Made by a program: the position numbers and the translations under genes
Notes under the pieces: model-generated
What the model saw: the letters and a program-made list of their open reading frames with translations, nothing else
What the model was told of the DNA's origin: nothing
The model's database searches: none
Assembly: GCA_025981625.1 (NCBI GenBank)
Contig: JAICXF010000005.1
Coordinates: forward strand, 1 to 54,730
Source of the DNA: Sphingomonas sp.
GTDB lineage: Bacteria; Pseudomonadota; Alphaproteobacteria; Sphingomonadales; Sphingomonadaceae
Direction: 5' to 3'
DNA: 54,730 nucleotides
In this document: positions 7,383 through 35,507 of the stretch, in pieces
Position numbering within the stretch: position 1 is the stretch's first letter
Layout: the number at the start of each line of letters is the position of its first letter

Positions 7383-7395
7383 CTCGATCCGCTGC

Positions 7396-10296: not shown

Positions 10297-10332
10297 CTCG
10301 TTCCCCTCTCGCTTCAACGCGCCGTTGGCGGT

Positions 10333-10361
10333 GCGTTACTGATGACACCGGTGTCTGTCAC
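10333..10361 (-). promoter_or_regulatory. TBDR1 promoter with LacI-family operator
   Basis: Read on the minus strand, GTGACA (10361-10356) and TAACGC (10338-10333) are 17 nt apart and fit a sigma-70-type promoter. The spacer holds GACACCGGTGTC (10344-10355), a perfect 12-bp palindrome and the most symmetrical copy of the regulon motif in this window. Transcription would start about 30 nt ahead of the ATG at 10296. Binding here would block RNA polymerase directly. The promoter hexamers are a reading by eye; the operator copy is certain as sequence. Confidence 0.7.
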
Positions 10362-10465
10362 TGGCCCCCGGAAAGGCCCGGAAAGAGCGTGCCCGCGATT
10401 GCCCGCGCGCCGGTCGCACCTCTCCTCGAACGCAGCTATTCTAACGCAAATTCCGACCGGTCCAC

Positions 10466-10492
10466 TTGACAGAGTAACCGGTGTCATAGCCA
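10466..10492 (+). promoter_or_regulatory. Second operator copy, with -35 of the divergent LamG lipoprotein promoter
   Basis: A perfect TTGACA (10466-10471) is followed by the operator ACCGGTGTCAT (10477-10487), the inverted form of ATGACACCGGT. A -10 match is poor: TAGCCA at 10487 is only 15 nt away and GCCAAC at 10489 has correct spacing but weak sequence. The site is 77 nt ahead of the LamG lipoprotein gene and 183 nt ahead of TBDR1, so it may serve both divergent genes. Centre-to-centre distance to the TBDR1-proximal copy is 130 bp. Confidence 0.6.
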
Positions 10493-10556
10493 ACGTGAAC
10501 CGGCGTGCGACGGCTGTCAAGGCGGCTGCACGCGGAGGATTGTGGAGGATGAGACG

Positions 10557-11288
10557 ATGCGATTTGCAGCCGGAATCAGTGCCTTTCTGCTCGCAACCGG
10601 CTGCACCCATCTGCTGGCTGGCAACGGCCGTTCCGAAGGCATCGTCTGGCGCTTCGACAATCTCCAGCGGATCGGCGGTCATCTCGTGCGGATCGAGGGC
10701 CAGCCGCGGCTCTTCGCCACAGCCGCGGGACCGGCGATTGCATTCGACGGGGTGCATGATGCGCTGTTCATACCGGCGCACCCGCTAGCCGGCGCAAAGA
10801 CCTTTACATTCGAGGCCGTCTTTCGACCGGACGGCGGCCCCTTCGAACAACGATGGTTCCATCTCGCGCAAGCCGATCCGGAGGCACCGCCCGGAACATA
10901 CCCGCCGGTGCAAGCGAGCGGGCCGCGATTCCTGTTCGAGATTCGAGTCGTCGGCAACAGCTGGTACCTGGACGCATTCACCGCCGGTCCCGGTTACTCG
11001 AAGACTCTCGTAGCACCCGAACAGCGATACCCCATCGGCCATTGGTACGATGTTGCGCAGACCTACGACGGGCACACGTATCGGAGCTACGTAAATGGGA
11101 GATTGCAGGCCCAGGCCGAACTCAGCTTCACGCCGCAGGGACCCGGTTTCGCCTCGGTCGGAACCCGGATCAACCGGCGCAACTACTTTCACGGCGCGAT
11201 CTATGCGGCTCGCTTCACCCCGCGCGCCCTTGCTCCCGGCGAATTCATGAAGGTCCCGCCAGCGCTCGAGCGCGTCCCTTCGCGCTAG
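10557..11288 (+). CDS. LamG/concanavalin-A-like domain lipoprotein
   Basis: A 243-aa protein. ATG at 10557 has GGAGG 8 nt upstream; a GTG at 10542 is less likely. The N-terminus ends in LLATGC, an acceptable lipobox, so the mature protein is probably lipid-anchored at Cys 16. The rest is a jelly-roll LamG-like fold: FDGVHDALFIPAHPL, FTFEAVFRPDGG, WYDVAQTYDGHTYRSYVNG (the usual WHHVA..YDG..RLYVNG pattern) and a final ARFTPRALAPGEF strand. No catalytic residues are recognisable, so a glycan-binding role is more likely than an enzymatic one. It is divergent from TBDR1 and shares its operator-bearing intergenic region, suggesting a surface binding partner for pectin fragments. Its TAG stop overlaps that of the convergent esterase. 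Confidence 0.72.
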   Translation: MRFAAGISAFLLATGCTHLLAGNGRSEGIVWRFDNLQRIGGHLVRIEGQPRLFATAAGPAIAFDGVHDALFIPAHPLAGAKTFTFEAVFRPDGGPFEQRWFHLAQADPEAPPGTYPPVQASGPRFLFEIRVVGNSWYLDAFTAGPGYSKTLVAPEQRYPIGHWYDVAQTYDGHTYRSYVNGRLQAQAELSFTPQGPGFASVGTRINRRNYFHGAIYAARFTPRALAPGEFMKVPPALERVPSR

Positions 11289-12817
11289 GTGCCCGGCTGA
11301 ATGTAAGGCACGCGGGCGAACAGTTCGCGCTGCTCGCGACGCGGATCGTTCTCCGTGTGCGGCGGAACGTCGAAGATCATCGTCGAACGCTGCGGCAGGC
11401 GGTACATCGGCCAGAACGGCAGGCCTCGGTGGTTGGGATCGCCCCGTGCGGCGAAGGTCATGAAGGAGCGCATCACGACGTCGCTCGCCGCACGCGCGGC
11501 GGCTCCGGTACCGGTGAATGAGCCCGGCGCGTCGATCGTCCCGAACGCCAATGGGATGTCCATGGTGTGGGGTGCGCCGCGCCAGGGGTCCGTCGGAGAA
11601 GCGAAATCGACCTGGTAGACCCAGGTCGGAGCATGGGCCTTTGCCCGCGCTTCCGCTTCTTCGACCTGACCACGCCAGCTGCGTCCGGCCGTTGTGGCGG
11701 CGTAGAATATCTGTTCCGGCGTATAGGCCGGGAACATCCGCCGGTACTCCGAAACGACCCACTCGGGCAGGATATCGATCTTCAACTCCGGGGCCATGCG
11801 CTCGGCGAGATTGTCCCAGGTTAGACCGGCCATCTTCGCGCGCGGGATAAAGGCGCGTGTTTCGTCGTGCGTATTGCCGAGCATCATCGGGATGGCGTTG
11901 GACTGCGGATTGGCGTCGGGCCAGAACGGGTGGCGAGTGAGCCACTTCATGTCGAGCACGGGCCCGAAATAGAGGCCGCCGCCCATCACCGGGTCCGTGG
12001 CGTCAAGCGCGTCGACAAGCCGCTCTACCGGCATGGCGACGAGATCTGCCGGCGCGGCTTTCAGCCTTGCGAGATAGGCGCGTGCCCGCTCGGTCGCGTG
12101 CAGCGGCCCGGATGCAGTCACCTGCTGACCGCTCATCGTGATCGCTCGCTGGAACAGCCCTTCTGCCGCAGGCATGCCCATCATGGTCGCGATCTTGGCG
12201 CCTCCGCCTGATTGGCCGAACACCATCACGCGAGAGGGATCGCCGCCGAAGGCTGCAATATTGTGCCGGATCCACTCGAGCGCGAGAATGAGGTCCAGTT
12301 GGCCAAGATTGCCGCTGTCCGGAAAGCGCGGATCGAGACGCGCAAGATACAGATAGCCAAGCGCGTTCAGCCGGTGATTGACCGTGACGACGACGGCCCC
12401 GCGGTCCGCCAGATGACGCCCGTCATTGAGCGGATCGACGACGCTTCCGGTCGAGTATGCGCCGCCGTGAATATAGACCATGACCGGGAGGTTCGCCCCG
12501 CGCCTGCCTTCCGGCGTCCAGACGTTCAGAAACAGGCAGTCTTCGCTTTGCGGCTTGTACGTGTTGTTGCGCTGCGGCGCCGACGGCCCGAAAGCAGAGG
12601 CGTCGATCACGCCGTGCGCGCGCGGCGGTGTCACGGGCGCACGAAACCGCGCGGCCGTACCGTAGCGAATGCCACGGAAGACCTGCAGCCCGCCCTCGCT
12701 CGATCCACGAACAAGGCCGAGCGACGTCTCGACGGTGCCAGATCTCGCACTGGCTGCACCATGAACTATCGTCGGAATCGCGGCTGCACCAAGTACGAAC
12801 GAGCGTCGCGTGATCAT
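11285..12817 (-). CDS. Carboxylesterase type B, Tat-exported
   Basis: A 510-aa serine esterase of the carboxylesterase/cholinesterase family. Signal: ITRRSFVLG plus hydrophobic core and HGAASA (Tat). Motifs: IRYGTAARFRAPV near the mature N-terminus, EDCLFLNVWTP, oxyanion hole YIHGGAYSTGS, nucleophile elbow FGQSGGGAK (Ser near 203), a GNTHDETRAF region and the terminal His segment with PHTMDIPLAFG. Length is normal for the family. Last gene of the kduI-kduD-kdgK-esterase operon, starting inside the kdgK stop (ATGA overlap). In a pectin context removal of methyl, acetyl or feruloyl esters is plausible. The family is broad, so substrate is not assigned. Confidence 0.85.
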   Translation of the reverse strand: MITRRSFVLGAAAIPTIVHGAASARSGTVETSLGLVRGSSEGGLQVFRGIRYGTAARFRAPVTPPRAHGVIDASAFGPSAPQRNNTYKPQSEDCLFLNVWTPEGRRGANLPVMVYIHGGAYSTGSVVDPLNDGRHLADRGAVVVTVNHRLNALGYLYLARLDPRFPDSGNLGQLDLILALEWIRHNIAAFGGDPSRVMVFGQSGGGAKIATMMGMPAAEGLFQRAITMSGQQVTASGPLHATERARAYLARLKAAPADLVAMPVERLVDALDATDPVMGGGLYFGPVLDMKWLTRHPFWPDANPQSNAIPMMLGNTHDETRAFIPRAKMAGLTWDNLAERMAPELKIDILPEWVVSEYRRMFPAYTPEQIFYAATTAGRSWRGQVEEAEARAKAHAPTWVYQVDFASPTDPWRGAPHTMDIPLAFGTIDAPGSFTGTGAAARAASDVVMRSFMTFAARGDPNHRGLPFWPMYRLPQRSTMIFDVPPHTENDPRREQRELFARVPYIQPGT

Positions 12818-13824
12818 CGGCGAACGTCCAGATTGCCTGCGAGAAACGAATCAAGGTCCGCCGGCCCAAACAGGCTCGAATCGCCCGGCAAGCTATGCTT
12901 GAGGCAGGACAGCGCCAGTCCGTAATTCACTGCCCGCTCGTTTGGCGCCCCGCTGAGCACACCGTGGAGCACGCCGGCGGCGAACGCGTCGCCCGCGCCG
13001 ATCCGGTCGACGATTCCGGCAAGCACCGTTTCATCCGTTTCGAATTCGGCGTCGGGCGTGTCGATTCGTGCCGCCATGCGGTGGCGGTCAGCATCGTCGA
13101 TTTGCCGACTGGTCGAGGCGATCAGCCGAAGATTGGGAAACCGGTCGAACGCCGCTTCCGCAGCTTCGCGTCGCCGCTGCCTGCCATCGCCTTCAAATTC
13201 CCGACCAAGCAGGAGTGAAACATCACGGTGATTCCCGAACAGGATGTCCGCCTTGCTCACGAGTTCACCGAGAATCGCCTTGGGATCGGACTCCCAAGCC
13301 TGCCAGAGCTGTGCGCGATAATTACCGTCGAACGAGACCGTCAGGCCGAGCGCACGGGCAGCATCCGCCGCCGCGAGTGCGGCTTGCGATGACCGCGCGC
13401 CGAGAGCGGGCGTGATTCCGGACAGATGAAGCAGCGCGGCACCGTCAAGCAGCCGCTGCCAGTCGAACTCGCTTTGGTTCGCCTGTGCGAAGCTGCTGCC
13501 CTCGCGATCATAAACGATCGATGAGGGACGCAGCCCCGCACCAGCGGACAGGAAATAGAGTCCCATCCGGCCCGGCCCGCGTCCGACGCCGTCGGTCGAC
13601 ACTCCGCACCGCCGCAGATAAGCAATCGCGGCGTCCCCGAGGGGATTGTCGGGCACGCGGCTGACCATCGCCGTTTCGTGCCCCAGGCACGCCAGCCCGA
13701 CGGCAACGTTCGCCTCGGCGCCGCCGACATGCACGTTCAAGCGGCCGCTCTGAAGCAGCAGCTCGCGACCCGGAGCACTCAGCCGCAGCAGCAGCTCGCC
13801 GAAACAGACAATTTTGGCGCTCAC
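12814..13824 (-). CDS. kdgK: 2-keto-3-deoxygluconate kinase (PfkB family)
   Basis: Phosphorylates 2-keto-3-deoxy-D-gluconate (KDG) at C6 with ATP to give KDPG, the entry point to the Entner-Doudoroff aldolase. 336 aa, GTG start at 13824 inside the kduD stop (GTGA). PfkB signatures are clear: N-terminal FGELLLRLSAPG, VHVGGAEANVAVGLACLG (near 32-49), substrate-side FDGNYRAQLW (165-174), and the C-terminal anion-hole motif GAGDAFAAG (276-284) with catalytic Asp 279. Position right after kduI and kduD supports KDG rather than another sugar. Cytoplasmic; no signal peptide. Confidence 0.9.
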   Translation of the reverse strand: MSAKIVCFGELLLRLSAPGRELLLQSGRLNVHVGGAEANVAVGLACLGHETAMVSRVPDNPLGDAAIAYLRRCGVSTDGVGRGPGRMGLYFLSAGAGLRPSSIVYDREGSSFAQANQSEFDWQRLLDGAALLHLSGITPALGARSSQAALAAADAARALGLTVSFDGNYRAQLWQAWESDPKAILGELVSKADILFGNHRDVSLLLGREFEGDGRQRRREAAEAAFDRFPNLRLIASTSRQIDDADRHRMAARIDTPDAEFETDETVLAGIVDRIGAGDAFAAGVLHGVLSGAPNERAVNYGLALSCLKHSLPGDSSLFGPADLDSFLAGNLDVRR

Positions 13825-14576
13825 CGGGCCAACCAGCCGCCGTCCACCGCCAGGATGTGGCCCTGCACGTAATCGGATGCATCAGACGCGAGAAAAACGA
13901 CCGCACCGGCGAGATCGGACGGCTTGCCCCAGCGCCCGAGCGGGATCCGCTCGATGATCTGCCGGTTTCGGACCTCGTCCGATTGCAGCGCCGCGGTATT
14001 GTTGGTTGCAATATAGCCCGGGGCGATGGCGTTCACGCAGATGCCGCGAGCCGCCCATTCGTTCGCGAGCAGCCTGGTGAGGCCGGCCAGTCCGCTCTTC
14101 GAAGCCGTGTAGCTCGGGACCCGTATGCCGCCCTGGAAGCTTAGCATGGAGGCGATGTTGATGATCTTGCCCCGACCCTTCGTCACCATGTGGCGGGCGG
14201 CAGCCTGACACAGGAAGAACACAGACTTGAGATTGGTATCCATCACCGCATCCCAGTCTTCCTCGCTGAAGTCGAGCGCGTCGGCTCGGCGGATAGTTCC
14301 GGCATTGTTGACGAGGATATCCAAGCCGCCAAGCTCGGCGATGGTCCTGTCGACGAGCTCCTGGACGGGCGCGATGCTGGATAGGTCGGCGCCGATGATC
14401 GCGGCTCGCCGGCCGGCGGCGCGCACGCGCTCGGCCGTTTCCTCGGCCGGAGTGCGCCCGACGAGGGCAACGTCGGCGCCCGCTCCGGCCAGCGCCAACG
14501 CCAGCCCTTGCCCGATGCCGGTGTTCGCGCCGGTGACGACGGCGACCCGGCCGGCAAGGTCGAACATGTCGGTCAT
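13821..14576 (-). CDS. kduD: 2-dehydro-3-deoxy-D-gluconate 5-dehydrogenase (SDR)
   Basis: NAD(P)H-dependent reductase turning 3-deoxy-D-glycero-2,5-hexodiulosonate into KDG. ATG at 14576 ([10 protein letters not shown]) is taken because it overlaps the kduI stop by 4 nt and matches the family N-terminus; the frame continues further upstream only by running through kduI. 251 aa. Classical SDR motifs: TGANTGIG (15-22), LVNNAG (88-93), and catalytic Ser with YTASK (Tyr 156, Lys 160). The C-terminus ends [16 protein letters not shown] as in KduD proteins. Its placement between kduI and kdgK fixes the substrate with good confidence. Confidence 0.9.
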
Positions 14577-15412
14577 TGCAGCTGACAGATGTCGAGGACA
14601 TTCATGTCCGTATAGTCCTGGTTCTCGCCGGCCATCGCCCAGATGAAGGCGTAAGACTTCGTGCCCGCGCCCATGTGGATGGACCACACCGGGCTGATCA
14701 CCGCTTCTTCATTGGCGACGACGATGTGGCGCATGGCTTCACCTTCGCCCATGAAGTGCATCACCCGGTCATTGTCGCCGTCGAGTTCGAAATAGAAATA
14801 GATTTCGCTCCGGCGCTCATGAATGTGCGGCGGCATGGTATTCCAGACGCTGCCGGGCTTCAGGACCGTTAGGCCCATGACCAGTTGGGCGCTGTCGCAC
14901 ACCCCTGGAATGACGAGCTGATAGATCGTGCGCTGGTTCGACTCCTCGAGGCTGCCCCGCTCCAGAGCATTGGCTTCGGCAATCGACAGCTTGCGGGTCT
15001 GGAAGGCCTTGTGGGCAGGACAGGACGCCAAATAGAAACGTGCGCCCGCGCCGGAGAATACGACGTCCTTGGCACCCATGGTCACGAACAGGCAATCCTT
15101 GTTGCCAAGCTCGAAGCGCTCGCCGTCCACGGTGACCGCCCCAGGCTGCGTTCCGACGTTGACGATCGCCAACTCGCGCCGCTCCAGGAACGGGTGACCG
15201 GCGGCGGAGGCAGGCTCCACCTGCTCGGGCAATCGCACGTCCGACTTACCGACCAGGACTCCGCCGATCACGAACCGGTCGGCGTGGGTGTAGTTGAGAA
15301 CGACCTCTCCCTCGCGGAACAGGTTCGGGATGAGGTAACGGTCCCGAAGCTCGTCACTGGAGACACATTCCATCATGTCTGGGTGCGTCGCGTAGTAATT
15401 GCGTTCGAACAT
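14573..15412 (-). CDS. kduI: 5-dehydro-4-deoxy-D-glucuronate isomerase
   Basis: Isomerises 5-keto-4-deoxyuronate, released from unsaturated oligogalacturonides, to the KduD substrate. 279 aa, full family length, bicupin fold. Recognisable segments: N-terminal [22 protein letters not shown], the ADRFVIGG region, the metal-site segment [47 protein letters not shown] and the terminal [18 protein letters not shown] at 15412 has GGAG about 10 nt upstream. First gene of a four-gene operon whose stops and starts all overlap; an operator copy lies 84 nt upstream. Confidence 0.95.
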
Positions 15413-15488
15413 TTGAAACTCGCTCCGTTTCAGGCTTCCAGCGGTTGCCGCTCACTAACCCCTATTCGCGGCCAACCAGGCCGTATGC

Positions 15489-15505
15489 AGGTAACCGGTG
15501 TCAGT
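15489..15505 (-). promoter_or_regulatory. LacI-family operator upstream of kduI
   Basis: On the minus strand this reads CTGACACCGGTTACC, one of nine copies of the window-wide motif. Its centre is 84 nt ahead of the kduI ATG, in the 119-nt gap between kduI and the regulator gene. A possible promoter around it (CTGCAC at 15509-15504 and ATACGG at 15486-15481, 17 nt apart on the minus strand) is weak. The operator itself is exact over the ten invariant bases. Confidence 0.75.
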
Positions 15506-15531
15506 GCAGCCGACAAGACGCCGCCGCTCGG

Positions 15532-16593: not shown

Positions 16594-16647
16594 CACACCT
16601 CTGCTGTTCGAATAACCACTGTTAAGAGTCTTGCCAACGCTTGCCGC

Positions 16648-16690
16648 TTGCGAAACTCCGCGGCGATGCATAGCTTATGACACCGGTTTC
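16648..16690 (+). promoter_or_regulatory. uxaA promoter and operator
   Basis: TTGCGA (16648-16653), a 17-nt spacer and TAGCTT (16671-16676) form a plausible promoter. The operator ATGACACCGGTTTC (16677-16690) begins directly after the -10, so transcription should start inside it. The uxaA ATG is at 16693, only 2 nt past the operator, which leaves room for a leader of about 8-11 nt and no Shine-Dalgarno. Confidence 0.65.
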
Positions 16691-16692
16691 CA

Positions 16693-18210
16693 ATGAATAT
16701 TGCAAGTCACCCCGAGACTCTTGAGCACATTCCGGCCGTTATCCAGGTCCACGAGGATGACGAGGTGGGAGTCGCGCTGCAGGCAATTCAGCCGGGTCAG
16801 CTGGTCGACGTCGCAGGCCGGCAAGTGCGTGCCCGCGACGCGATCGAGACGGGACACAAAATCGCGCTCCACGACATCGCCGAAGGCGCCACGGTCCGGA
16901 AATACGGCTGGCCGATTGGCCGTGCCACCAGCGACATCGCCGCAGGCGCGCATGTCCACACCCATAATCTTGCGACCCTGCTGACTGGCGTCGAAGGCTA
17001 CAGCTATCGGAAGCTTCCCGCCTCCCCGCTTCCATCGGCAAATGACGCCCGGTTTCTTGGCTATCGGCGAGCGGACGGCGCGGTCGCAACGCGGAATGAA
17101 ATCTGGATCCTGCCCACCGTCGGCTGTGTCGCTCGGACCGCGGAGCGGATCGCGGACATCGCTCGGGGGCGCTTCTCGACTGATGTCGACGGGGTTTATG
17201 CTTTTCAGCATCCGTTCGGATGCTCGCAGCTCGGCGACGACCTTGCCGCGACCCGGTCCGTGCTCGCTTCGCTGGCCTGCAATCCGAACGCGGGCGGCGT
17301 GCTGGTCATCGGCCTCGGCTGCGAGTCCAACCAGCTTAACACACTGCTGGATCTCATTCCGGAGCCGCTCCGCGACAAAATCCGCACGCTCAAAGCTCAG
17401 GCCGAAGAAGACGAGATTGAAGCTGGACTGGCCCTGGTCGAGGATCTGGTCGCGGAGGCCGCTCGGGCGAAGCGCGAGCCCGTGCCGCTCTCCAAGCTGG
17501 TCATTGGTCTCAAGTGCGGTGGCTCGGACGCCTTTTCGGGGCTCACGGCCAATCCCCTCGTGGGCCGAATATCGGACCTCGTGATCGGCTCCGGCGGCTC
17601 TGCCATCCTGACGGAAATCCCCGAGATCTTCGGCGCCGAGCGGATGCTGATGGCGCGCGCTCAAAGCGAGGGGGTTTACGACAAGCTGGTTGCCGTAGTG
17701 AACGATTTCAAACGCTACTTCCTGTCGCATAATCAGCCTGTCTCGGAGAACCCCTCCCCCGGCAATCTACAGGGCGGTATCACGACCCTCGAAGAGAAGT
17801 CGCTCGGCGCGATTCAAAAGGCCGGCCGCGCACCGGTTGCCGACGTCATCCGTTATGGCGATCGGATCCGCGCGTCCGGACTGACACTGCTCGAGGCGCC
17901 GGGAAATGACGCGGTTTCCTCGTCCGCGCTCGCCGCGGCCGGCGCCACGATGATCTTGTTCACCACCGGGCGAGGCACTCCACTGGGATTTCCGGTCCCC
18001 ACCGTGAAGATCGCGACCAACAGCGCACTTGCCCAGCGAAAGAAGAATTGGATCGACTTCGATGCGGGCGGCACGCTCGAGCATGGGTTCGACGCGAGCT
18101 CGACCGGGTTGCTGTCGCTGATCACCAGCATCGCGTCGGGCGAAAGCACCGCGGCCGAACGCAATGGAGAACGCGAGATTGCGATCTGGAAACGCGGTGT
18201 AACGCTGTGA
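16693..18210 (+). CDS. uxaA: Altronate dehydratase
   Basis: Dehydrates D-altronate to KDG in the isomerase branch of galacturonate catabolism. 505 aa, close to the usual length for the fused UxaA form. An N-terminal SAF domain (about 12-100: VHEDDEVGVALQ, ALHDIAEGATVRKYGWPIGRAT, AGAHVHTHNL) precedes the large catalytic domain with FLGYRRADGAVATRNEIWILPTVGC, a Cys cluster region (PFGCSQLG, GLGCESNQ), GLKCGGSDAFSGLTANP and TTGRGTPLGFPVPTVKIATN. These are the iron-site and signature regions of UxaA/UxuA-type enzymes. Divergent from the LacI-type regulator. The start lacks a ribosome site; MNIASHPETL gives a normal N-terminus for the family, so the ATG at 16693 is kept. Confidence 0.92.
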   Translation: MNIASHPETLEHIPAVIQVHEDDEVGVALQAIQPGQLVDVAGRQVRARDAIETGHKIALHDIAEGATVRKYGWPIGRATSDIAAGAHVHTHNLATLLTGVEGYSYRKLPASPLPSANDARFLGYRRADGAVATRNEIWILPTVGCVARTAERIADIARGRFSTDVDGVYAFQHPFGCSQLGDDLAATRSVLASLACNPNAGGVLVIGLGCESNQLNTLLDLIPEPLRDKIRTLKAQAEEDEIEAGLALVEDLVAEAARAKREPVPLSKLVIGLKCGGSDAFSGLTANPLVGRISDLVIGSGGSAILTEIPEIFGAERMLMARAQSEGVYDKLVAVVNDFKRYFLSHNQPVSENPSPGNLQGGITTLEEKSLGAIQKAGRAPVADVIRYGDRIRASGLTLLEAPGNDAVSSSALAAAGATMILFTTGRGTPLGFPVPTVKIATNSALAQRKKNWIDFDAGGTLEHGFDASSTGLLSLITSIASGESTAAERNGEREIAIWKRGVTL

Positions 18211-18319
18211 TCGCGGCCTCATCGCTGCCGGGCTGACCAACGGCATGGTCGATCCGGTGAAGATGGCGAGATCGGATAAGCGACAAGCGATAAAGACGGC
18301 TAAATTCGTCGCCCCGACA

Positions 18320-18348
18320 TTGCAGATGACACCGGTTTCCTTTAGCTC
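18320..18348 (+). promoter_or_regulatory. Promoter of hydratase-like gene with operator in the spacer
   Basis: TTGCAG (18320-18325) and TAGCTC (18343-18348) are exactly 17 nt apart, and the spacer consists of the operator copy ATGACACCGGTTTCC (18326-18340) plus two bases. Transcription would begin about 20 nt ahead of the GTG start, leaving a leader with GGAGGGA. The rest of the 164-nt gap after uxaA shows nothing else recognisable. Confidence 0.7.
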
Positions 18349-18374
18349 GATGATGAAATGGGGCCGGAGGGAGC

Positions 18375-19202: not shown

Positions 19203-19221
19203 CACCGGTTTTCCGTAGAAC
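19193..19221 (+). promoter_or_regulatory. exuT promoter and operator overlapping the upstream stop codon
   Basis: TTGTCG (19193-19198) and TAGAAC (19216-19221) are 17 nt apart. The spacer begins with the operator GTGACACCGGTTTTCC (19199-19214). The TGA inside TGACACC is also the stop codon of the hydratase-like gene, so the operator starts within coding sequence. Transcription would begin roughly 40 nt ahead of exuT, and GAGGG and AAGG ribosome-site matches follow. Confidence 0.7.
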
Positions 19222-19267
19222 CACGAGTCAAGGGTTCCTCACGAGGAGCGAAGAGGGTGAATAAGGT

Positions 19268-21327: not shown

Positions 21328-21331
21328 TCCC

Positions 21332-24300: not shown

Positions 24301-25156
24301 TGGATGGGGATGCCAACACCGGCGGGCTCGCGCGGTCCCAGCCGTAGCGGTGCAGCCATTCTTCCCGGCGCCCCGCAGCGGACACGGGCACGGCTGCGTC
24401 CGGCTCCTGCTTGCGCGCCAGTGCCGCGACCGACTGCGGCGCGAGCATTGCGTCGTAAATCCGGATTTCGTCGACGTCGCTGCCGCGCATGAATGAATAG
24501 CGGCTCTGCACCTGGTGCGGAGAGACGACGCGCGCGGCCAGTCCGAATTGGTCGAGACCGGTATCGTAATCGGCCTTCGTGTCCTTGCGCGCGGCCTCTC
24601 GGCCATCGACGTACAGGCGCACGCCGACATTTTCGTCCCAACTGAACGCCAGGTGGTGCCAATCGTCCGGCTTGGGCAGTCCGTTCAGACGAAAGGAAAC
24701 GCGCGTTCGAGCGAGGTTGGCGTCCGTGACGAAAGCATCAAAGCCGTGACCGTTCCAGTCGATGCGGAGCCAGGCCATGTCCCAGCTCGTGTGATCGGCG
24801 AAGCCGACGCGAAAGATGTTGAATGGCGCCTCGCCAACCCGTGTGCGTGAGCGCCAGAAGAAGGAGAGCGTGCCCCGTTGCGCGTAGATGTTGCCGGGCG
24901 CGTTCCACGTCACCACGCCATCGTCGTCCCAATGAATGGCGCCTCCGATCGCGCCGTCAGGGACGATCCGGACCTTATCCTTGAAATTGGGCACGGGATC
25001 GCCGCCGGCTTTGTCGGCGATGAAGCCCTGGTCGGCCGAGAGGCGGAAGAGAAGATTAGGCGCATCGGCCCGGGACGGGCTGGCGGCACAAAGCGCCGCG
25101 ATCATCGCAGTCCCAGCGAGTTGCGCCCGCATCGTGGGCTTCCACTTCCGCCGCAT
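21332..25156 (-). CDS. Large secreted LamG protein with putative alpha/alpha-toroid core (unknown activity)
   Basis: A 1274-aa exported protein. ATG at 25156 is chosen because GGGAGGG lies just upstream; a Sec signal follows (LAGTAMIAALCAASPSRADA). Regions by eye: a LamG-like lectin fold at about 32-250 (WHHLAFSWDENVGVRLYVDG, VDEIRIYDAML), a beta-rich middle part (about 265-620), a helical Trp/Tyr/Asn-rich region at about 640-1010 (VRHFVNWWIDNRQVPYGDFGG, HFASNWYGGRKIYREGPWEW, MYMLTEGHWWSDRVDQP), a beta region to about 1165 and a CARDB-like terminal domain ending in RLNNEV. A helical barrel flanked by beta-sandwiches recalls polysaccharide lyases and toroid-fold glycosidases, but I do not recognise a family. 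It has its own pectin operator and lies downstream of PL1 and GH28, so action on pectin is inferred. Confidence 0.7.
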   Translation of the reverse strand: MRRKWKPTMRAQLAGTAMIAALCAASPSRADAPNLLFRLSADQGFIADKAGGDPVPNFKDKVRIVPDGAIGGAIHWDDDGVVTWNAPGNIYAQRGTLSFFWRSRTRVGEAPFNIFRVGFADHTSWDMAWLRIDWNGHGFDAFVTDANLARTRVSFRLNGLPKPDDWHHLAFSWDENVGVRLYVDGREAARKDTKADYDTGLDQFGLAARVVSPHQVQSRYSFMRGSDVDEIRIYDAMLAPQSVAALARKQEPDAAVPVSAAGRREEWLHRYGWDRASPPVLASPSTRIRKVEFADAKDLKEWMWKGVDGISETTWPGVYNRSRLPGRDDYFELPDWNVYVEGGKAYDLAVPAGEKFNRVEIRGAAYGDLSWSGEGQHWRNLARRPQGVVRTFDSFPEREGGRLRFTNVAQETPIQEIWAYDVTAGEEPKGTLKLSYTVNPDAAPDYGNLKPLTRFIEGRYPADERETVVALPAGASSGRAAAAAGDPTSTGTVQRKAGSSPIVHILIPSGFGDALPARAPSRAWNYGWENVHDGLDGVAIDIPPLNVQPNAAGLIPLDIRVKDPIWPQRDLIDVSVSVRPREARTLWLDTRDRILTDDSFYLTVASAAPDFGPSDLKGMNIRLVFKPREEAMKEHVADRFNQVKDNWGFLVEEHTASKREALYRRLFGDISDLLKVDPDNRLAREYWADISYNAQGPLPFTQPQPPAGVPLWAFRQLEDLKLVRHFVNWWIDNRQVPYGDFGGGISDDVDLTEQWPGLALMGVDPDKINTSLRALSDAVYKNGMRVNGLGYITTDELHAYEEGLNSDAERLYLNWGEPKSIERLMDTVRALQNVILANPAGHMHFASNWYGGRKIYREGPWEWQKPYSFTVLHAPILIGLYNGNPQARALVTGTIDGWLAHGKKGADGRWSFPNEINWRTDAERVGDRGGLTTPLQAAWASYRWSGDSKYLRPLETRVDEAPSTLAEINENAIDVLGRRKDWGKALTEKPSGPFGQYVAWDMTGDKASLDKLHAEAIRSKSQNMYMLTEGHWWSDRVDQPNEILQRERLGGIALRRNQTWPGNSVSWRFADANGAEQVAMLVPGATPNHFKVIAYNMSDQPQLARMTGWDVDAGVWRMTSGIDSNGDDKADAALKSEEVPLERSASVNVTFAPRQTTVLEFTLDRPTTPVERRPDLGIGGSDVRLAGRQLSVTVHSLGAAPTAGGTLQVRDASGRVLASAAIPPLAAPLDLRPKTAEVRVTLPSAMEAHGSRISISLPGDAPEVTRLNNEVTLP

Positions 25157-25226
25157 ACATGTCCCTCCCGGATTCACTCGACTCACCCACCGCAGCACCG
25201 CTCTAGCGCCGGGCGAACGCTTCACC

Positions 25227-25257
25227 TTCATAGGAACATTATGACACCGGTATCAAT
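25227..25257 (-). promoter_or_regulatory. Operator and promoter of the large LamG gene
   Basis: The operator ATGACACCGGTATCAA (25241-25256) is nearly a full inverted repeat. On the minus strand TTGATA (25256-25251) and TATGAA (25232-25227) are 18 nt apart, a fair sigma-70 match overlapping the operator. The expected leader is about 65 nt. This lets the LamG gene be transcribed separately from the TBDR2-GH28-PL1 genes upstream. Confidence 0.7.
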
Positions 25258-25287
25258 CTGGTTTTCAATCTCCACTCCGTCGCGCAG

Positions 25288-26607
25288 CTATGCGTGCGGA
25301 CGGCCGCTGGCGAGAGCGTTGAGATAGCGTTCGAGATTGGTGCTGCCATCGGCCGCTACGCCACCCGCGCTATCGTCCTTCGCCGGGTTGAGTCCGTGTC
25401 GCCGCTCCCATGCGTCCGGCATCCCATCACCGTCGCTGTCGCGGGGTGCTGGAGCCGTGGCGAGGACCGGCCACCCGCCGACATCGCGCTGGCTATCGAT
25501 TTGTTGACCCGTGCGCGTGCGGACCCCCTCAATGATCGCGGCGTCGACCGAGTCTCTCGCAATGGAATCGCCGGCGCTGGCGAGAACCTTCCGGTACGCC
25601 GCGGCTGGCGGGTCGTCGGTCACCGGTGGCATCGGAACGGGCGAGGTCAGCCGATAGCCTTGGGGCTGCACGCCGTTGACCAGAGTCCAGGGGTCGGTCG
25701 GTACCGCGCCGTTCATGCTGTTGCCCGCGAAATAAGCGTGCGCGAGCACGTCGGATTCGTGGAACGCCACGGGTTCCTTGGACTGTGGCCCCATGACGTA
25801 TGCGTTGTTGACGAAATTGTACTGCGACAGGGTCGCGGCGTCGGCGTTGTAGCCCGACCAGCCCCTGCCCCAGTTATAGAATACGTTCGACCGGAAATCG
25901 AAGAATGCACCGACGGGATCGATGTCCGGCCCCGAGTAATTGCCCGGCCTCGGCATCCGGGCTTCGTGGTTCGCCCAGAGATTATGATGGAAGCTGATCC
26001 GGGCTCCGCGCCCTCCGCGAATGAGGCTGCCGTAGCCGTGCTCGCCCTTGGCATGCAGCGAATGGGTGAGCGAATCCGCGATAATCGACCATTGTACCGT
26101 CAGGTCATAAAATCCCTCGCCGGGCTTCGTGTAATTTGCCGATGCGGAGAGCGTCTCGTCGACGGACCAGCTGGCGGACACGTGATCGAGAATGATCCGG
26201 TGACCGGCGATGATCCATATCGCGTCCGACTGGGTCCGGGATTCGTCGCCCAGCCGCGAACGAATGAAGCGGATCACCACGTCATCGGCCGCAACCTCGA
26301 GCGGCTGGTCGCGAAGCGTAATGCCGCCTCCAGGAGCGGTCTGGCCGGCGATGGTGATGCGCGGCTCGGTGATCCTGAGCGGCTTGGCGAGCTTGATGGT
26401 GCCGGAGACTTTGAAGACGATGGTGCGCGGACCTGGCGTATCCACCGCCGCGCGCAAGCTGCCCGGCCCATTGTCGTCGAGGTTCGTGACGATCAGAACC
26501 TTGCCGCCCCGCCCTCCCAGCGAGAAGCGGCCGGCGCCCTCTGCTCCGGGAAAGGCGAGGTGCTGCGGAGCCGCCGCGGCCGCCGCGAGAAGGATGAGTG
26601 ACAGCAT
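25288..26607 (-). CDS. Pectate lyase, polysaccharide lyase family 1-like
   Basis: Secreted lyase cleaving de-esterified homogalacturonan by beta-elimination to unsaturated oligomers, which feed the KduI/KduD branch. 439 aa, ATG at 26607 with GAGGAA 6 nt ahead, short Sec signal (MLSLILLAAAAAA). Right-handed beta-helix features: FPGAEGAGRFSLGGRGG (19-35), ITIAGQTAPGGGI (84-96), VVIRFIRSRLGDE (110-122) with Ca-side residues, and DHVSASWSVDETLS (141-154). The C-terminal part carries DSDGDGMPDAWERRHGLNP, a thrombospondin-3/dockerin-like Ca-binding repeat common in these enzymes. Third gene behind TBDR2, 18 nt after GH28. Confidence 0.9.
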   Translation of the reverse strand: MLSLILLAAAAAAPQHLAFPGAEGAGRFSLGGRGGKVLIVTNLDDNGPGSLRAAVDTPGPRTIVFKVSGTIKLAKPLRITEPRITIAGQTAPGGGITLRDQPLEVAADDVVIRFIRSRLGDESRTQSDAIWIIAGHRIILDHVSASWSVDETLSASANYTKPGEGFYDLTVQWSIIADSLTHSLHAKGEHGYGSLIRGGRGARISFHHNLWANHEARMPRPGNYSGPDIDPVGAFFDFRSNVFYNWGRGWSGYNADAATLSQYNFVNNAYVMGPQSKEPVAFHESDVLAHAYFAGNSMNGAVPTDPWTLVNGVQPQGYRLTSPVPMPPVTDDPPAAAYRKVLASAGDSIARDSVDAAIIEGVRTRTGQQIDSQRDVGGWPVLATAPAPRDSDGDGMPDAWERRHGLNPAKDDSAGGVAADGSTNLERYLNALASGRPHA

Positions 26608-26625
26608 GCGATTCCTCGATTGCGG

Positions 26626-28038
26626 TTAGGACAGCGACGACGCCGGGAGGCCGTTCACGAGCACCCGCTTGAGCGCGAGGTCTTCGGTGAACCGAATTAT
26701 GCTGGGCTCGGTGACGCCGTCGAACCGGCAATCGAGAATGCTGATGTCGCGCACCGGGGCTCCGGGCAGTCCCTGGCTGTCGAGTACCCGCTTTGCCTGT
26801 GCGGCGCGAAGGCGTTCGATGACGATGTGGCGCAGGATCGGCTTGTACGGTCCCTTTGCACCCTCTTCATAATTGAAGTCGCAGGCAATCGCCGCGCGCT
26901 GGACCTGTCCCACCCGGATGTCCCGGAAGTAGAAGTCCTCGAGCACGCCGCCGCGGGCTGCATTGTTCTTGAACCGCAAGGCGTAATAGAGGTTCGGGCT
27001 GTCCATGACGCAGTTTTCGGCGAAAATTCGCCTTGCTCCGCCTGAGATTTCCGACCCGATCGTCACTCCTCCGTGGCCTTCCTTCATCCGGCAATTACGG
27101 ATGACGATGTCCTCGCTCGGCGTATGAAGCCGCCGGCCATCCGCGTTGCGCCCCGACTTGACGGCGATGCAATCGTCGCCCGTGTCGAACGTGCAGCCCT
27201 CGATCAGCACCATCGAGCAGCTTTCCGGATCGCAACCGTCGTTGTTGGGCCCGTGACCATAGATGTCGAGGTTGCGGACGATCACGTTCCTGCACAGGAC
27301 CGGATGCACCTGCCAGAAGGGGGCCCCGCGTAGCTTCACCCCTTCGATCAGGACGCCCTCGCAGCCATAGGGCTCAATGAACGACGGGCGGAGGTAGCTT
27401 CCGTCGCCGAACACGCGTTTCTCGACTGGAACTCCCGCTTCGGCCATCTGCGCCAGGCGCGCACGCGCGGGCCGCTGATCAGGCATCCCTTCTCGCCAGC
27501 CGTTGCTAACCGTGCCGCGCCAAGGGCCTTTCCATGCCCACCAATGGCTGCCGCTCGCTTGACCGTCGAGCGTACCCTCACCGGTGATGGCGATGTTTCG
27601 CTGCCGGTAGGCGTAAACCAGCGGCGAGTAGTTGATCAGCTCGAACCCTTCCCACCGAGTCCGCACCAGCGGGTAGTGCGAGGGGTCGGTCGAAAACAGC
27701 AACGTAGCGCCGCGCGCAAGGTGGAGCTCGACATTGGAACGCAGGTGGACGGCGCCGGTCAGGAAACGTCCCGGCGGGACCAGAACCCGTCCCCCGCCCG
27801 CTGCCGCGCAAGCGTCGATCGCCGACGCGATGGCGGCAGTCGCTAGCGTTTTCCCGTCACCTCTCGCGCCGAAACTCGTGATCGGGAACGTGCGCCGTGG
27901 AAACACAGGCGCCCGAAGCGAACCGGCGATGGCCTGCGCATGAGCCCAGGGATCGACCGGTCCTGCTCCGACGAGGGCCGCACCGCTCAGTGCGGCGCTC
28001 GCACCCAGCAGCTCCCGACGGGTTGTCCGTATCAGCAT
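26626..28038 (-). CDS. Polygalacturonase, glycoside hydrolase family 28
   Basis: Hydrolyses alpha-1,4-galacturonosyl bonds (endo or exo not decidable). 470 aa, ATG at 28038, 22 nt after TBDR2. The N-terminus has TRRELLG plus hydrophobic core, a Tat signal. The pectin-lyase-like beta-helix contains the GH28 catalytic signatures in order: GPNNDGCDPES (263-273, general-acid Asp), TGDDCIAVKSG (286-296, paired Asp), GHGGVTIGSE (321-330, His) and RFKNN (355-359, in place of the usual RIK). An N-terminal SFGARGDGKTLATAAIASAIDACA segment is also typical. Products would be taken up by TBDR2 and, as monomer, by ExuT. Confidence 0.93.
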   Translation of the reverse strand: MLIRTTRRELLGASAALSGAALVGAGPVDPWAHAQAIAGSLRAPVFPRRTFPITSFGARGDGKTLATAAIASAIDACAAAGGGRVLVPPGRFLTGAVHLRSNVELHLARGATLLFSTDPSHYPLVRTRWEGFELINYSPLVYAYRQRNIAITGEGTLDGQASGSHWWAWKGPWRGTVSNGWREGMPDQRPARARLAQMAEAGVPVEKRVFGDGSYLRPSFIEPYGCEGVLIEGVKLRGAPFWQVHPVLCRNVIVRNLDIYGHGPNNDGCDPESCSMVLIEGCTFDTGDDCIAVKSGRNADGRRLHTPSEDIVIRNCRMKEGHGGVTIGSEISGGARRIFAENCVMDSPNLYYALRFKNNAARGGVLEDFYFRDIRVGQVQRAAIACDFNYEEGAKGPYKPILRHIVIERLRAAQAKRVLDSQGLPGAPVRDISILDCRFDGVTEPSIIRFTEDLALKRVLVNGLPASSLS

Positions 28039-28060
28039 GTCGCCCGCTTCCGCCTGAATG

Positions 28061-31000
28061 TTAGAAAGAGAGGCGAAGACCCACGGTAATGACCCTGCCC
28101 GTGCTCGAATAAGTCTGGGTCACCGGGCTGGCGGCATACATTGTCTCGTAATCGGGCGCATTGGTGAGATTGCGACCCTCAAGCCTGATCTCCGCATATG
28201 GCGTGATATTGTATGCGAGCGCCGCATCCACGTTGAGCTGGCTTTCGCGATAGCGGAAGTCGGCGATGACCGGGGAATTGCAGGCGCCGCCATTGTTTGT
28301 GGTCAGGCCGGCATCGCAAGTGCCGCTGACGAGGGGGAAGCGATTGACATAGCGCGTCCGATAGGCGGCCGAGACCCGCGCAGACCAGATCTTGTTCTCA
28401 TAGAACAGCGTCGCATTGAAAGAATCGGGCGAGGTATTGAGCCACGGCGCCGTCGCGTACGCGTTGCTTACCTTCGGATTCGATCCCGATTGGGTCACCG
28501 CCAGCACGGTGTTGGTCAGATAGTTCAGCTTCGACCAGATGTGCGTGTAATTGGCGGTGATCCCCATGTCGTCGAATGGGTGCGGCAGGAAAGTGAAGTT
28601 CGACTGCACGTCGAGTTCGACTCCCCGGATGTTTCCGCCGGGCGCATCCTGGAACTGGCGAACCGCCCACTCACCCCCGGCCTGAGTGTAGGCCCGCAGC
28701 GTCGAGCTCGTCATGTTCGCCACAACCTGCTGATAGATCGCCGGCTCGAACACGTCGGCGAGCGGCGCTTCGATGGCAATCTGCTGCGGGAAGGTGTCGA
28801 TGTGCTTGGTGAACGCCGCGACCGCAATCAGGCCACCGCGTCCGAAATAGCGCTCGATACTCACGTCGAAATTGGTCGAACGGAACGGCTTGAGGTACGG
28901 ATTGCCGACGGTGACCGTTGGTGCCGCGCCGGAACTTGATAAGCCGCTCGAGAAGGATGTCGTGCCGGGCGTCAAATTTTGCAGCATCGGTCGCGAAATC
29001 GTCTTCGACGCAGCGAACCGAACCAGCAAGCCGCGCGACGGCTCATAAACCGCGTTCAGCGCGGGCAGCCAGTCGGTATATTGGTTGTGCGCCGTGACCG
29101 GCAATCCAAGGACGCCGTCGGTTGCGCCGATCGAGCCGACACCCTTCTCGCGCGTCTGAGCGACGCGCATTCCAAGGTTGCCGCGCAGCGGATGTCCGAA
29201 GACGTCGAAATTATAGTCCACCTGGCCAAAGCCGGACAGATCATCCTCGGTCACGGAATTCCGCTGTCGACCATCGACAACCGCACGGAAATCGCCCCAC
29301 TTGTTCACGCAATTGCAGTCGATCCCGAACTCCTGGACGAACTTGCCGAGATCCGGCGCATAGAAGCTCGTCGGCGTACCCTGCGATACGTCCAGGCCCT
29401 GGCCGAAGCCGACCGTCTTGCCGAGATCGGTGATGTTCAGGTGTGACTCGAGGAGCGTTGGATTGATCGCCTCAATGTCCTGGTTGCGCCGCGCCTGGTC
29501 GCTATTGAACTGATATTGCTTGCGCGTGGCGCCGAAGCGCAGGGAGAGGTTCTCGGGGATGAGATCCCAGGTGAAGTTGAGGCGACCGACCTTGAAGCTG
29601 TTATCGATATAGCCCTGGTAGAATCGGATCGTCGAAAGCCCCTTTACGAGCGACCAGCTATTGGGGTTGGCGACGTCGAAGCCGGGGCTGAAGATCGGCA
29701 TCTTGCCGCCGTCACGCTCGTCGAAAACGTAATTGTCCTGGTCGATCGCATTGAACTCGGCGAGCAATCCGGTGAACTTGAATTCCGATTTGGACCAGCC
29801 GAGCGTGACATCGGCGTGGAACCGGTCCGTGAAGTCCTGGTGTCCGTTCAGCGACGCCTGCTTGAAAAGCGTGTTGCCGAACTGGGCATCCGCCGAGCTG
29901 CGCCAATCGACATCGTTCAGTTGGAGATAATCGGCCTGGCCCGCTGCATTGACATCGGCGGCCATGATCTTGGTCGCTGGACGCCCGATCAGCTGCGAAT
30001 AGAAGCCGGTCTTGTTCGACGTTGCGACATAGCCCGGGGACGAGGGCGAATTGTAATAATCATAGGGATTGAGGTTGTTCGGATTGATGCTGTTGACCAT
30101 GCCGGGCAGCACGGCCCCGCCATAAATCATGGCGCCGCAGTCGGTGGTCGCGCTCGGCACGCAATTCGGGTAGAGCGCGACCCGATCCGCGATGCCGCTG
30201 GAGGAAGTCGGCGAGCGCAACGTCCCTTGAGTGGCGCGCGTATTGGTCCCGTTCCGGTTGAGCCCGATGGTGGTGATCCCATCGTTGTCCGAAGTCTGAT
30301 GATAGGTCGAGATCACTCCGTCGAGGATGATTTCGGTATGATCGGTCGGCTTCCACTGCGCGGTAAGCGTCGCTCCCAGACGCTTGTAACTCAGCTCCCG
30401 GCGCGAGATCGACGGACGCGCGGGAATGATCGTCGTCGGCGTGATCTTCGAATAGGCTGCGGGGTCGGACCCATAGATCGGGCCGGTCCCGGCCGTGGAC
30501 GGCAAGGCGAAGCCAAACGTCGGCGGGCTGATGCCGTTGATCTGTGAATTGCGGTACGCATATTCGAAAGCGCCGATGCTGCGGCTGTACGAATCGACCG
30601 TCTGCTGCTGCCTTTGGTAGGAGATCGACCCCAGAACACCGAACCGGTCGGTGACCCGCTTCGAGAACAGGCCAGTGAGCCGAGGGCCGACCTTGTGCCC
30701 GTTCTGTCGATATTCGCCCTCGATCCCGATCGCGACGCGGTCCTTCTTGTAGGAGAGCGGCCGACCGGTCGTCAGATCGATGATCGCGCCGAGCGAACCC
30801 TCGTCGTCGGAGGCTGCCGTCGTCTTCGTGACCGTCACGGCGCCGAACAGATCCGAGGCGAACGTGTTGAAATCGAATCCACGAGTGCGGTTGCCGCCCG
30901 CGTCCGAGCTGTTGCCGCCCGCGACCGATTGCGCATCGACGCCATTCAGTCGCGTGAGCTGAAAATCTCCGCTCAGCCCCCGGATGGTGACTGAACGACC

Positions 31001-31399
31001 TTCGCCGTTGTCGCGATCGATGGACACGCCGGGCAGTCGCTGAATCGACTCGGCGACGTTGGCGTCGGGGAATTTCGCAATGTCCTCGGCGGTGATCGCG
31101 TCGATGATCTGATTGGACCGCCGCTTCAGGTTTACGGAGGCGGCAAGCGACGCGCGAAAGCCGGTTACCACGATCGCATTGGCGTCGGTCGGCTGTGCGC
31201 CCTGGGCGCTCTGTGGCTGGCTTGTTGTCGGCGCCTGCCCCGCCTGTGGCTGCGCAGAGGCAATCTCGTTCGGGATCGCCGCCTTTGAACTCGAGGCCGC
31301 TGCTGTTGTGTGAGAAAGCGCCGGCGACGGCATCACTGCCACGATTGCCATGGCTGCGCACGAGACGCTGCTGCGAAGCACCCCTTTGACCTGATTCAT
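28061..31399 (-). CDS. TonB-dependent receptor 2 (oligogalacturonide uptake)
   Basis: A 1112-aa outer-membrane transporter. ATG at 31399 with GGAGGGG upstream; Sec signal with AMAIVAVMPSPALSH; a Gln/Ala/Pro linker; TonB-box-like IVVTGFRASL; a plug with AEDIAKFPDANVAESIQRLPGV, SVTIRGLSGDFQLTRLNG and a long barrel ending in VITVGLRLSF (terminal Phe). Its plug is similar in layout to TBDR1 but the barrel is longer. It is followed on the same strand by GH28, PL1 and the large LamG gene, which makes oligogalacturonides the likely cargo. Two operator copies lie in the 302-nt upstream gap. Confidence 0.93.
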   Translation of the reverse strand: MNQVKGVLRSSVSCAAMAIVAVMPSPALSHTTAAASSSKAAIPNEIASAQPQAGQAPTTSQPQSAQGAQPTDANAIVVTGFRASLAASVNLKRRSNQIIDAITAEDIAKFPDANVAESIQRLPGVSIDRDNGEGRSVTIRGLSGDFQLTRLNGVDAQSVAGGNSSDAGGNRTRGFDFNTFASDLFGAVTVTKTTAASDDEGSLGAIIDLTTGRPLSYKKDRVAIGIEGEYRQNGHKVGPRLTGLFSKRVTDRFGVLGSISYQRQQQTVDSYSRSIGAFEYAYRNSQINGISPPTFGFALPSTAGTGPIYGSDPAAYSKITPTTIIPARPSISRRELSYKRLGATLTAQWKPTDHTEIILDGVISTYHQTSDNDGITTIGLNRNGTNTRATQGTLRSPTSSSGIADRVALYPNCVPSATTDCGAMIYGGAVLPGMVNSINPNNLNPYDYYNSPSSPGYVATSNKTGFYSQLIGRPATKIMAADVNAAGQADYLQLNDVDWRSSADAQFGNTLFKQASLNGHQDFTDRFHADVTLGWSKSEFKFTGLLAEFNAIDQDNYVFDERDGGKMPIFSPGFDVANPNSWSLVKGLSTIRFYQGYIDNSFKVGRLNFTWDLIPENLSLRFGATRKQYQFNSDQARRNQDIEAINPTLLESHLNITDLGKTVGFGQGLDVSQGTPTSFYAPDLGKFVQEFGIDCNCVNKWGDFRAVVDGRQRNSVTEDDLSGFGQVDYNFDVFGHPLRGNLGMRVAQTREKGVGSIGATDGVLGLPVTAHNQYTDWLPALNAVYEPSRGLLVRFAASKTISRPMLQNLTPGTTSFSSGLSSSGAAPTVTVGNPYLKPFRSTNFDVSIERYFGRGGLIAVAAFTKHIDTFPQQIAIEAPLADVFEPAIYQQVVANMTSSTLRAYTQAGGEWAVRQFQDAPGGNIRGVELDVQSNFTFLPHPFDDMGITANYTHIWSKLNYLTNTVLAVTQSGSNPKVSNAYATAPWLNTSPDSFNATLFYENKIWSARVSAAYRTRYVNRFPLVSGTCDAGLTTNNGGACNSPVIADFRYRESQLNVDAALAYNITPYAEIRLEGRNLTNAPDYETMYAASPVTQTYSSTGRVITVGLRLSF

Positions 31400-31463
31400 T
31401 CCGGCATCCCCTCCTGCCAGACGCCGACCTGGTCCCTGAATGGACGCAGATACTCGCCGTCCT

Positions 31464-31479
31464 ATGACACCGGTAACAT
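31464..31479 (-). promoter_or_regulatory. Proximal operator upstream of TBDR2
   Basis: ATGACACCGGTAACAT (31464-31479), with both outer half-site ends conserved. Its centre is 72 nt ahead of the TBDR2 ATG and 116 bp from the distal copy. No convincing -10/-35 pair surrounds it, so it may be an auxiliary or roadblock site. Confidence 0.75.
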
Positions 31480-31572
31480 CAACCTTCGGTAATCCGCAAC
31501 ATGGCGTGCAAAAATTCCGTTTGAACGCGGTTTCGAGCCGCTTGAAAGCGCCTGGAAGGGCATTTCGGCAGA

Positions 31573-31601
31573 AAATGCAGGAAAACCGGTGTCATGGGCA
31601 A
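31573..31601 (-). promoter_or_regulatory. Distal operator and probable promoter of TBDR2
   Basis: On the minus strand TTGCCC (31601-31596) is followed by the operator ATGACACCGGTTTTC (31595-31581) and, after a 17-nt spacer, GCATTT (31578-31573). This is the same layout as at exuT and at the hydratase-like gene. Transcription from here would give a leader of about 165 nt. The rest of the 302-nt gap (31400-31701) shows no gene. Confidence 0.65.
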
Positions 31602-32376: not shown

Positions 32377-32396
32377 CCGGATCGGTCCTCTGCGAT

Positions 32397-35449: not shown

Positions 35450-35507
35450 CCCACTCTAACGGAGACACTCGTCAAACGACACTCCCCGTCCAATGTGTCG
35501 AGCGAAC

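Follow-up and report, generated by a model that had tools for sequence, protein, structure and literature searches.

Nine exact copies of the word TGACACCGGT were found in Sphingomonas sp. contig JAICXF010000005.1, within the 54,730-base stretch analyzed here (the window). The sites appear to be operators of the LacI-family protein encoded at 15532-16593 and to place the genes for pectin use under joint control. We give this reading, which rests on sequence comparison, a probability of about 0.85. The sites, the set of genes beside them, their co-occurrence with the regulator, and their fixed distances to promoter-like elements are features of the DNA itself.

Copies of the word, searched on both strands, start at 10343, 16678, 18327, 19200, 25242, and 31465 on the plus strand and at 10477, 15494, and 31585 on the minus strand. 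The first-pass annotation of this DNA had the six plus-strand starts right and set the three minus-strand starts one base too high. It was also right that nine copies lie far above chance. The mean was 0.05 copies per window in 100 dinucleotide-preserving shuffles, and none of the shuffles reached nine. Allowing up to one mismatch gave 14 matches, with 2.5 expected. A weight matrix built from the relatives' exact copies, which favors the exact word by construction, returned the same nine sites as its top nine (17.8 to 26.6 bits). Its next-best match (15.7 bits) lay within the PelZ-like gene and is within the range of shuffled sequence, as 20 Markov-shuffled windows gave scores of up to 16.8 bits. 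The copies lie in gaps between genes, as had been claimed, save the one at 19200, which starts at the TGA stop codon of 18375-19202. The last copy ends at 31594. The rest of the window has no copy of TGACACCGGT, so the halogenase genes, the third TonB receptor, and the fucose-type genes there lack the site; its absence from the halogenase and fucose clusters had been noted.

The sites precede pathway, transport, and depolymerase genes for galacturonate and pectin, both in the window and in relatives. Family searches agreed with the earlier placement of sites before kduI, uxaA, the exuT-like gene, the TonB-dependent receptor (TBDR) genes, and the LamG genes. Neither uxaC nor a genuine uxaB was found in the window by tblastn. 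We discounted a weak uxaB match at 18129-18215, which lies almost entirely inside uxaA and stems from the opening residues of an open frame picked mechanically.

Loci were compared from the best 80 of at least 571 relatives, some of them near-identical strains. At least one exact TGACACCGGT was present in 76 of the 80 loci, with 258 copies in total. When the letters of the word were scrambled (up to 300 words), the mean was 3.45 copies and the maximum 57. The hydratase-like gene accounted for 74 site-gene pairs, all with the site along the gene's orientation. Sites were likewise gene oriented at kduI (23/23), uxaA (27/28), and exuT (4/4). They ran against the gene at the large LamG gene (7/7) and GH28 (3/3). 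At TBDR1, 44 sites ran along the gene and 23 against it. Where gene order differs between loci, the sites tend to travel with the genes. Much of this association can be common descent. The four loci without the word around the regulator (L058, L072, L074, and L076) come from genomes with two to four copies of TGACACCGGTNNC elsewhere. In genome G011, both kduI and a TonB receptor are preceded by copies, and the stretch also contains an esterase gene and an MFS gene.

Pathway genes missing from the window had been predicted to carry the same site. This held for uxaC, which is directly preceded by the site behind the regulator gene in both relatives examined (L009 and L024). It held in part, and by position only, for uxaB. 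In four of ten genomes (G001, G002, G004, and G012), the space between the uxaA site and the hydratase site contains a mannitol-dehydrogenase-family gene, taken as uxaB from its position. The gene is located elsewhere in the other six.

Across the genomes of 12 relatives, TGACACCGGTNNC occurred 85 times and the reversed pattern 4 times. We examined 18 stretches around outlying or additional copies, most of them selected because the right half looked plausible. In 13 of them, the site adjoined a gene for a TonB receptor, a glycoside hydrolase, an esterase, a transporter, or a TonB-like protein. The neighbor was a TonB receptor in L111, L113, L118, L119, L121, L122, L123, L125, and L128. It was a GH28 gene in L116, an MFS transporter in L114, an esterase in L115, and a TonB-like gene in L120. 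The regulon had been called local, and in relatives it is not purely so. In L120 (3023-3993, genome G002), the site lies about 290 bp before the TonB-like gene, which suggests a dedicated TonB in the regulon.

The site follows the regulator from genome to genome. TGACACCGGTTWCC was present in 77 of 249 genomes of the family (213 copies), with 4 copies of the reversed control. Orthologues of the regulator, defined by at least 56% identity (the next full match had 48%), were found in 67 of the 249. TGACACCGGTTWCC was present in 65 of these 67 and in 12 of the 182 genomes without an orthologue (Fisher p ~1e-44). With two fragmentary orthologues included (G064 and G236), the counts were 66/69 and 11/180. 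Two genomes encode the orthologue and have no strict site. In G245, TGACACCGGTGTCT stands between the genes for the regulator and the hydratase. The sole match in G103 is a copy with one mismatch, at a distance of 4 kb from the regulator. The highest count among the 249 genomes was in G084, with 12 copies of TGACACCGGTTWCC over two contigs, possibly an expanded regulon.

These counts bear on whether the sites belong to another regulator of the same pathway, the LacI gene being merely a neighbor. Among the 75 genomes with uxaC, the site was present in 48 of 50 with the regulator and in 4 of 25 without a detected orthologue (p 1.3e-12). Those four are what such a second regulator would predict. 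Among genomes without uxaC, the site was present in 18 of 19 with the regulator and in 7 of 155 with neither. The site therefore tracks the regulator and not the pathway. The central CG of the site is also of the kind read by LacI-family hinge helices, as described in part of PMC2978694. We consider the neighbor explanation improbable.

The regulator itself contains a LacI helix-turn-helix domain (PF00356, 1.1e-19), a hinge, and a periplasmic-binding-protein-like sensor domain (PF13377, 1.1e-36). Its recognition helix, KKTVSRVIN, is invariant in all 81 aligned sequences (the window plus the 80 loci), which is what a constant site would lead one to expect. With no variation in the helix, an attempt to match its changes to those of the operator failed. 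The hinge reads QARALAL in 80 of the 81, and its leucines are kept in all 81. A hinge with the conserved leucine and a site centered on ACC|GGT, with its CG, are what the LacI/GalR family would call for. Residues 17-350 of 353 align to residues 4-332 of the Lac repressor, and the Lac-type C-terminal tetramer tail is absent from the protein, so a dimer is expected. That tail is optional in the LacI/GalR family. Few of the protein matches name an organism; those that do are from Sphingomicrobium and Allosphingosinicella. Cultured sphingomonads with the orthologue include Sphingomonas mali and S. leidyi (loci L005 and L040). The sites, the pectin and galacturonate genes, and the regulator co-occur across relatives, which supports the assignment first proposed.

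The site is pseudo-palindromic. Pooled from the window and the 80 loci, 267 copies were compared, and TGACACCGGT was followed by TACC in 87 and by TTCC in 78 of them (165/267). The perfect palindrome TGACACCGGTGTCA was found in 0 of the 267. The left half had been described as far better kept than the right. That difference stands, although the right half is mostly a distinct sequence of its own. Judged from these tallies and the promoter distances below, the weak right half is a separate, promoter-dependent half-site type and not a product of decay. T occupied the first right-half position in 170 of 183 gene-oriented sites and in 16 of 43 reverse-oriented sites.

Two fixed distances to promoter-like elements were found among 264 non-identical sites. 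With TTG 13 bases before the site (the -13 register), the right half was TACC in 51 of 54. With TTG at -7, TTCC plus TA at +16 was present in 56 of 66. The background for TTG was 2% per position. On the far side of 265 sites, used as a mirror control, no TTG offset exceeded 14 occurrences, compared with 69 and 54 on the TGACACC side. In both registers, TA lies 23 bases from the first base of TTG, corresponding to a 17-base spacer. The -13 register was found at sites just behind the regulator gene (34/50) and at kduI (13/19). The -7 register was found at hydratase promoters (TTG in 56/61 and TA in 55/61) and at exuT (4/4). In the window, five of the six gene-oriented sites have TTG at -7 or -13, judged by eye. 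The kduI site is in the -13 register, the hydratase and exuT sites are in the -7 register, and the distal TBDR1 and TBDR2 sites have TTG at -7 without TA. TTGACA was found upstream of sites 25 times, mostly starting 31 to 34 bases before, and twice on the mirror side, over slightly unequal scan ranges (36 and 30 bases). That spacing would place the operator just after the -10 element.

In the -13 register, the -10 element begins with the TA of TACC, and this dual role accounts for some of the asymmetry. In the -7 register, TTCC lies inside the spacer and so must be kept for another reason. Promoter needs alone thus fall short as an explanation, and a composite site would account for the remainder. 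The LacI protein would read one half of such a site (for example, TGACACCGGTTACC), and the other half, GGWAACC on the opposite strand, would depend on a mixed dimer or on another protein. The right-half counts and the missing perfect palindrome agree with this. The passages available from two papers argue the other way. A degenerate code in the LacI family predicts mixed half-sites under one homodimer (PMC2978694), and LacI itself favors a slightly asymmetric operator (PMC6375646). We regard a composite site as unlikely.

Neighboring sites less than 300 bp apart formed 38 pairs. Of these, 24 were inverted (+-) and 117-173 bp apart from center to center, and all 24 were close to the 5' end of a match to a TonB receptor. 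DNA looping was considered from the helical phasing of the 24 pairs. Rayleigh values were 0.004 to 0.019 for periods of 10 to 11, and the value against jittered distances was 0.12. Looping is not claimed because the distances cluster anyway and the protein has no Lac-type tetramer tail.

Steric repression by a dimer is the simplest account of the sites and the likely mechanism. It is favored by the many sites inside promoter-like elements, by the repressor family, and by the invariant recognition helix. The 14-bp site has the form TGACACC|GGTNNNN, and the dimer would occupy it as long as the sugar signal is missing. Promoters of enzyme and inner-membrane transporter genes have the site either over -10 or in the spacer that separates it from -35, where the dimer would block RNA polymerase. 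TonB-receptor promoters have two inverted sites, upstream of the start or around it. The signal is probably galacturonate or a breakdown product. It would free the repressor and induce, at the same time, outer-membrane uptake, the depolymerases, transport across the inner membrane, and the uxa/kdu pathway. We infer that the regulator gene may be under the same control. The protein could instead be an activator or dual regulator, and PckR of the same family is predicted to be dual in the part of PMC4052901 consulted. The TTG-register sites sit between or over the -35- and -10-like elements and not upstream of them, which makes this very unlikely.

A further possibility, which we hold tentatively and consider doubtful, is that one regulator uses two half-site types for different jobs. 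Hybrid sites of TGACACC and GGWAACC, with TGACACC toward -35 at the two fixed distances, would serve enzyme and transporter promoters. Paired, more symmetric operators would serve receptor promoters. Uptake and catabolism would thus answer different signal levels. In a stronger form, a partner protein may read the second half-site.

Several observations weigh against operators of a single LacI-family repressor. In the register tally, 72 of 264 sites have no TTG register, no TACC, TTCC, or TACT right half, and no TA at +16. Most uxaA sites in relatives have no conserved TTG (4/27 at -13), and the window's uxaA site (16678-16691) ends one base before the listed start codon at 16693. Of the 267 sites, 43 were assigned to no queried gene. 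No recognized family adjoined the site in L112, L117, L124, or L126 (E 1e-10; the scans covered 17 of the 18 stretches, all except L127). Another 17 outlying copies in the 12 genomes, with right halves such as GGC, GCC, AGC, and CAC, may be chance. The genomes are mutually related and some loci are near-identical, so the p-values and counts overstate the case. The site is present in 11 or 12 genomes that have no orthologue. The 14 sites in the 180 orthologue-free genomes exceed the 4 of the reversed pattern in all 249. Some may belong to a different regulator or to an orthologue missing from the assembly. An internal stop is seen in three of the 67 orthologues (G054, G110, and G234).

More distant regulators were also found. 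In a class-wide sample of 385 genomes, seven encoded a regulator at 48-51% identity, and exact copies of the word were present in six of the seven stretches. The TTTCC form occurred near the hydratase gene in 6/6, gene oriented in four and reversed in two. TTG was at -7 in 3/6. TTACC was present behind the regulator in L131 and L133, and a one-mismatch form in L134. The seventh stretch, L137, had no exact copy, and the regulator was its sole match among the queried genes. Close operator pairs, 34-35 bp apart, precede a TBDR1-like gene in these distant relatives. Their right halves are more palindromic, and one is a perfect palindrome.

Table 1. Putative operators and genes around them in the window, with close operator pairs from distant relatives
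Feature	Position	Strand	Remarks
Operator (putative)	10343..10356	+	26 bp before TBDR1 open reading frame, opposite orientation to TBDR1; right half GTCT
Operator (putative)	10473..10486	-	Distal in TBDR1 pair, proximal to LamG gene; TTG at -7; right half TACT
Operator (putative)	15490..15503	-	Before kduI-kduD-kdgK-esterase; TTG at -13; right half TACC
Operator (putative)	16678..16691	+	uxaA/LacI divergent gap; right half TTCC
Operator (putative)	18327..18340	+	Before hydratase-like gene; TTG at -7, TA at +16; right half TTCC
Operator (putative)	19200..19213	+	Before exuT-like gene, on upstream stop codon; TTG at -7, TA at +16; right half TTTC
Operator (putative)	25242..25255	+	Before large LamG gene; right half ATCA
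Operator (putative)	31465..31478	+	Proximal in TBDR2 pair; right half AACA
Operator (putative)	31581..31594	-	Distal in TBDR2 pair; TTG at -7; right half TTTC
TonB-dependent receptor 1 (TBDR1)	7396..10317	-	Followed by GH43 (5763-7493) and esterase (4774-5766)
LamG-domain protein	10542..11288	+	Family search
Carboxylesterase-family protein	11285..12817	-	Family search
PfkB sugar kinase, KDG-kinase-like	12814..13824	-	Below NCBIfam cut-offs
kduD (2-dehydro-3-deoxy-D-gluconate 5-dehydrogenase)	13821..14687	-	Above TIGR01832 cut-off
kduI (5-dehydro-4-deoxy-D-glucuronate isomerase)	14573..15412	-	Above NCBIfam cut-off
LacI-family regulator, 353 aa	15532..16593	-	Helix-turn-helix, hinge, and sugar-binding domains
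uxaA (altronate/galactarate dehydratase family)	16693..18210	+	Family search
Hydratase-like protein	18375..19202	+	Distant kin of 2-keto-4-pentenoate hydratase and NahK
exuT-like MFS transporter	19268..20563	+	Nearest model D-galactonate transporter subfamily, below cut-off
Large LamG-domain protein	21332..25231	-	Family search
PelZ-like protein	25288..26607	-	Below NCBIfam cut-off
GH28 protein	26626..28038	-	Nearest model alpha-D-galacturonidase BT4155, below cut-off
TonB-dependent receptor 2 (TBDR2)	28061..31399	-	Family search
Close operator pairs, distant relatives	L132:15184-15231, L135:13133-13180, L136:2020-2067, L134:12195-12243, L133:4742-4789		

The features are listed in Table 1. 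TBDR1, GH43, and the esterase are perhaps one operon. The LamG protein at 10542-11288 had been called a lipoprotein in the first-pass annotation. The hydratase-like gene matches no Pfam family and has conserved GWK.G, E.E, and G.E.A.SP stretches. It is also distant kin of 4-oxalocrotonate decarboxylase, and it has the most site-gene pairs of any gene. Two adjoining tryptophan-halogenase-family genes and the third TonB receptor occupy 31702-38975 and have no operators. The genes after this receptor encode enolase-superfamily, aldo/keto reductase, SDR, MFS, and FAA hydrolase proteins, also without a site. A serine-recombinase-type gene at 47974-50052 (Resolvase and Recombinase domains) is a possible mark of a mobile insertion.

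LacI-family uronate regulators in print include the ExuR, KdgR, UxaR, and UxuR groups (Ravcheev et al. 2014, PMC4052901) and UxuR2 of Algoriphagus marincola (PMC5507952). Like the protein here, they are LacI-family regulators assigned to galacturonate or glucuronate pathway genes; the likeness drawn is one of description. The regulon here differs from these accounts in including TonB-dependent receptors and pectin depolymerases, and the parts of those accounts consulted name no sphingomonad case. Regulators in PMC8579813 were considered as close kin and set aside, since the part seen describes KdgR as IclR-type and UxaR as predicted DeoR-type. The sux locus of Xanthomonas campestris, as summarized in PMC1790865, likewise has a LacI/GalR-type repressor (SuxR) over a TBDR, an inner-membrane transporter, and a sugar enzyme. 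It differs in serving sucrose and not pectin and in having four genes. The lac operator O1 of Escherichia coli is also asymmetric, with a stronger preference for its left half-site (from an excerpt of PMC6375646). O1 has an intervening base between its half-sites (PMC2978694, in part), whereas the site here is even-centered at ACC|GGT. Camas et al. 2010 (PMC2978694) describe, in the portion drawn on, two half-site types in one operator as a general scenario. The mixture here is a specific one, kept at two fixed distances from promoter-like elements.

No paper was found for the palindrome TGACACCGGTGTCA in titles and abstract starts, and the papers matching TGACACCGGT there concern other topics. 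A sphingomonad LacI/pectin or LacI/uxaC regulon was not found in titles or abstract starts either, in a search that left out most subscription journals and RegPrecise.

The regulon appears to be a new and well-supported case of a type of gene switch that is already familiar. Its least ordinary feature is the hybrid operator at two fixed promoter distances. Sphingomonads are often found on plants, and the results provide a testable operator, regulator, and gene set for their use of pectin. Regulon membership points to genes that are so far unassigned, including the hydratase-like gene, the LamG genes, and the TonB receptors. With its fixed promoter distances and non-palindromic half, the operator would be a good natural case for the study of how a homodimeric repressor uses an asymmetric site.

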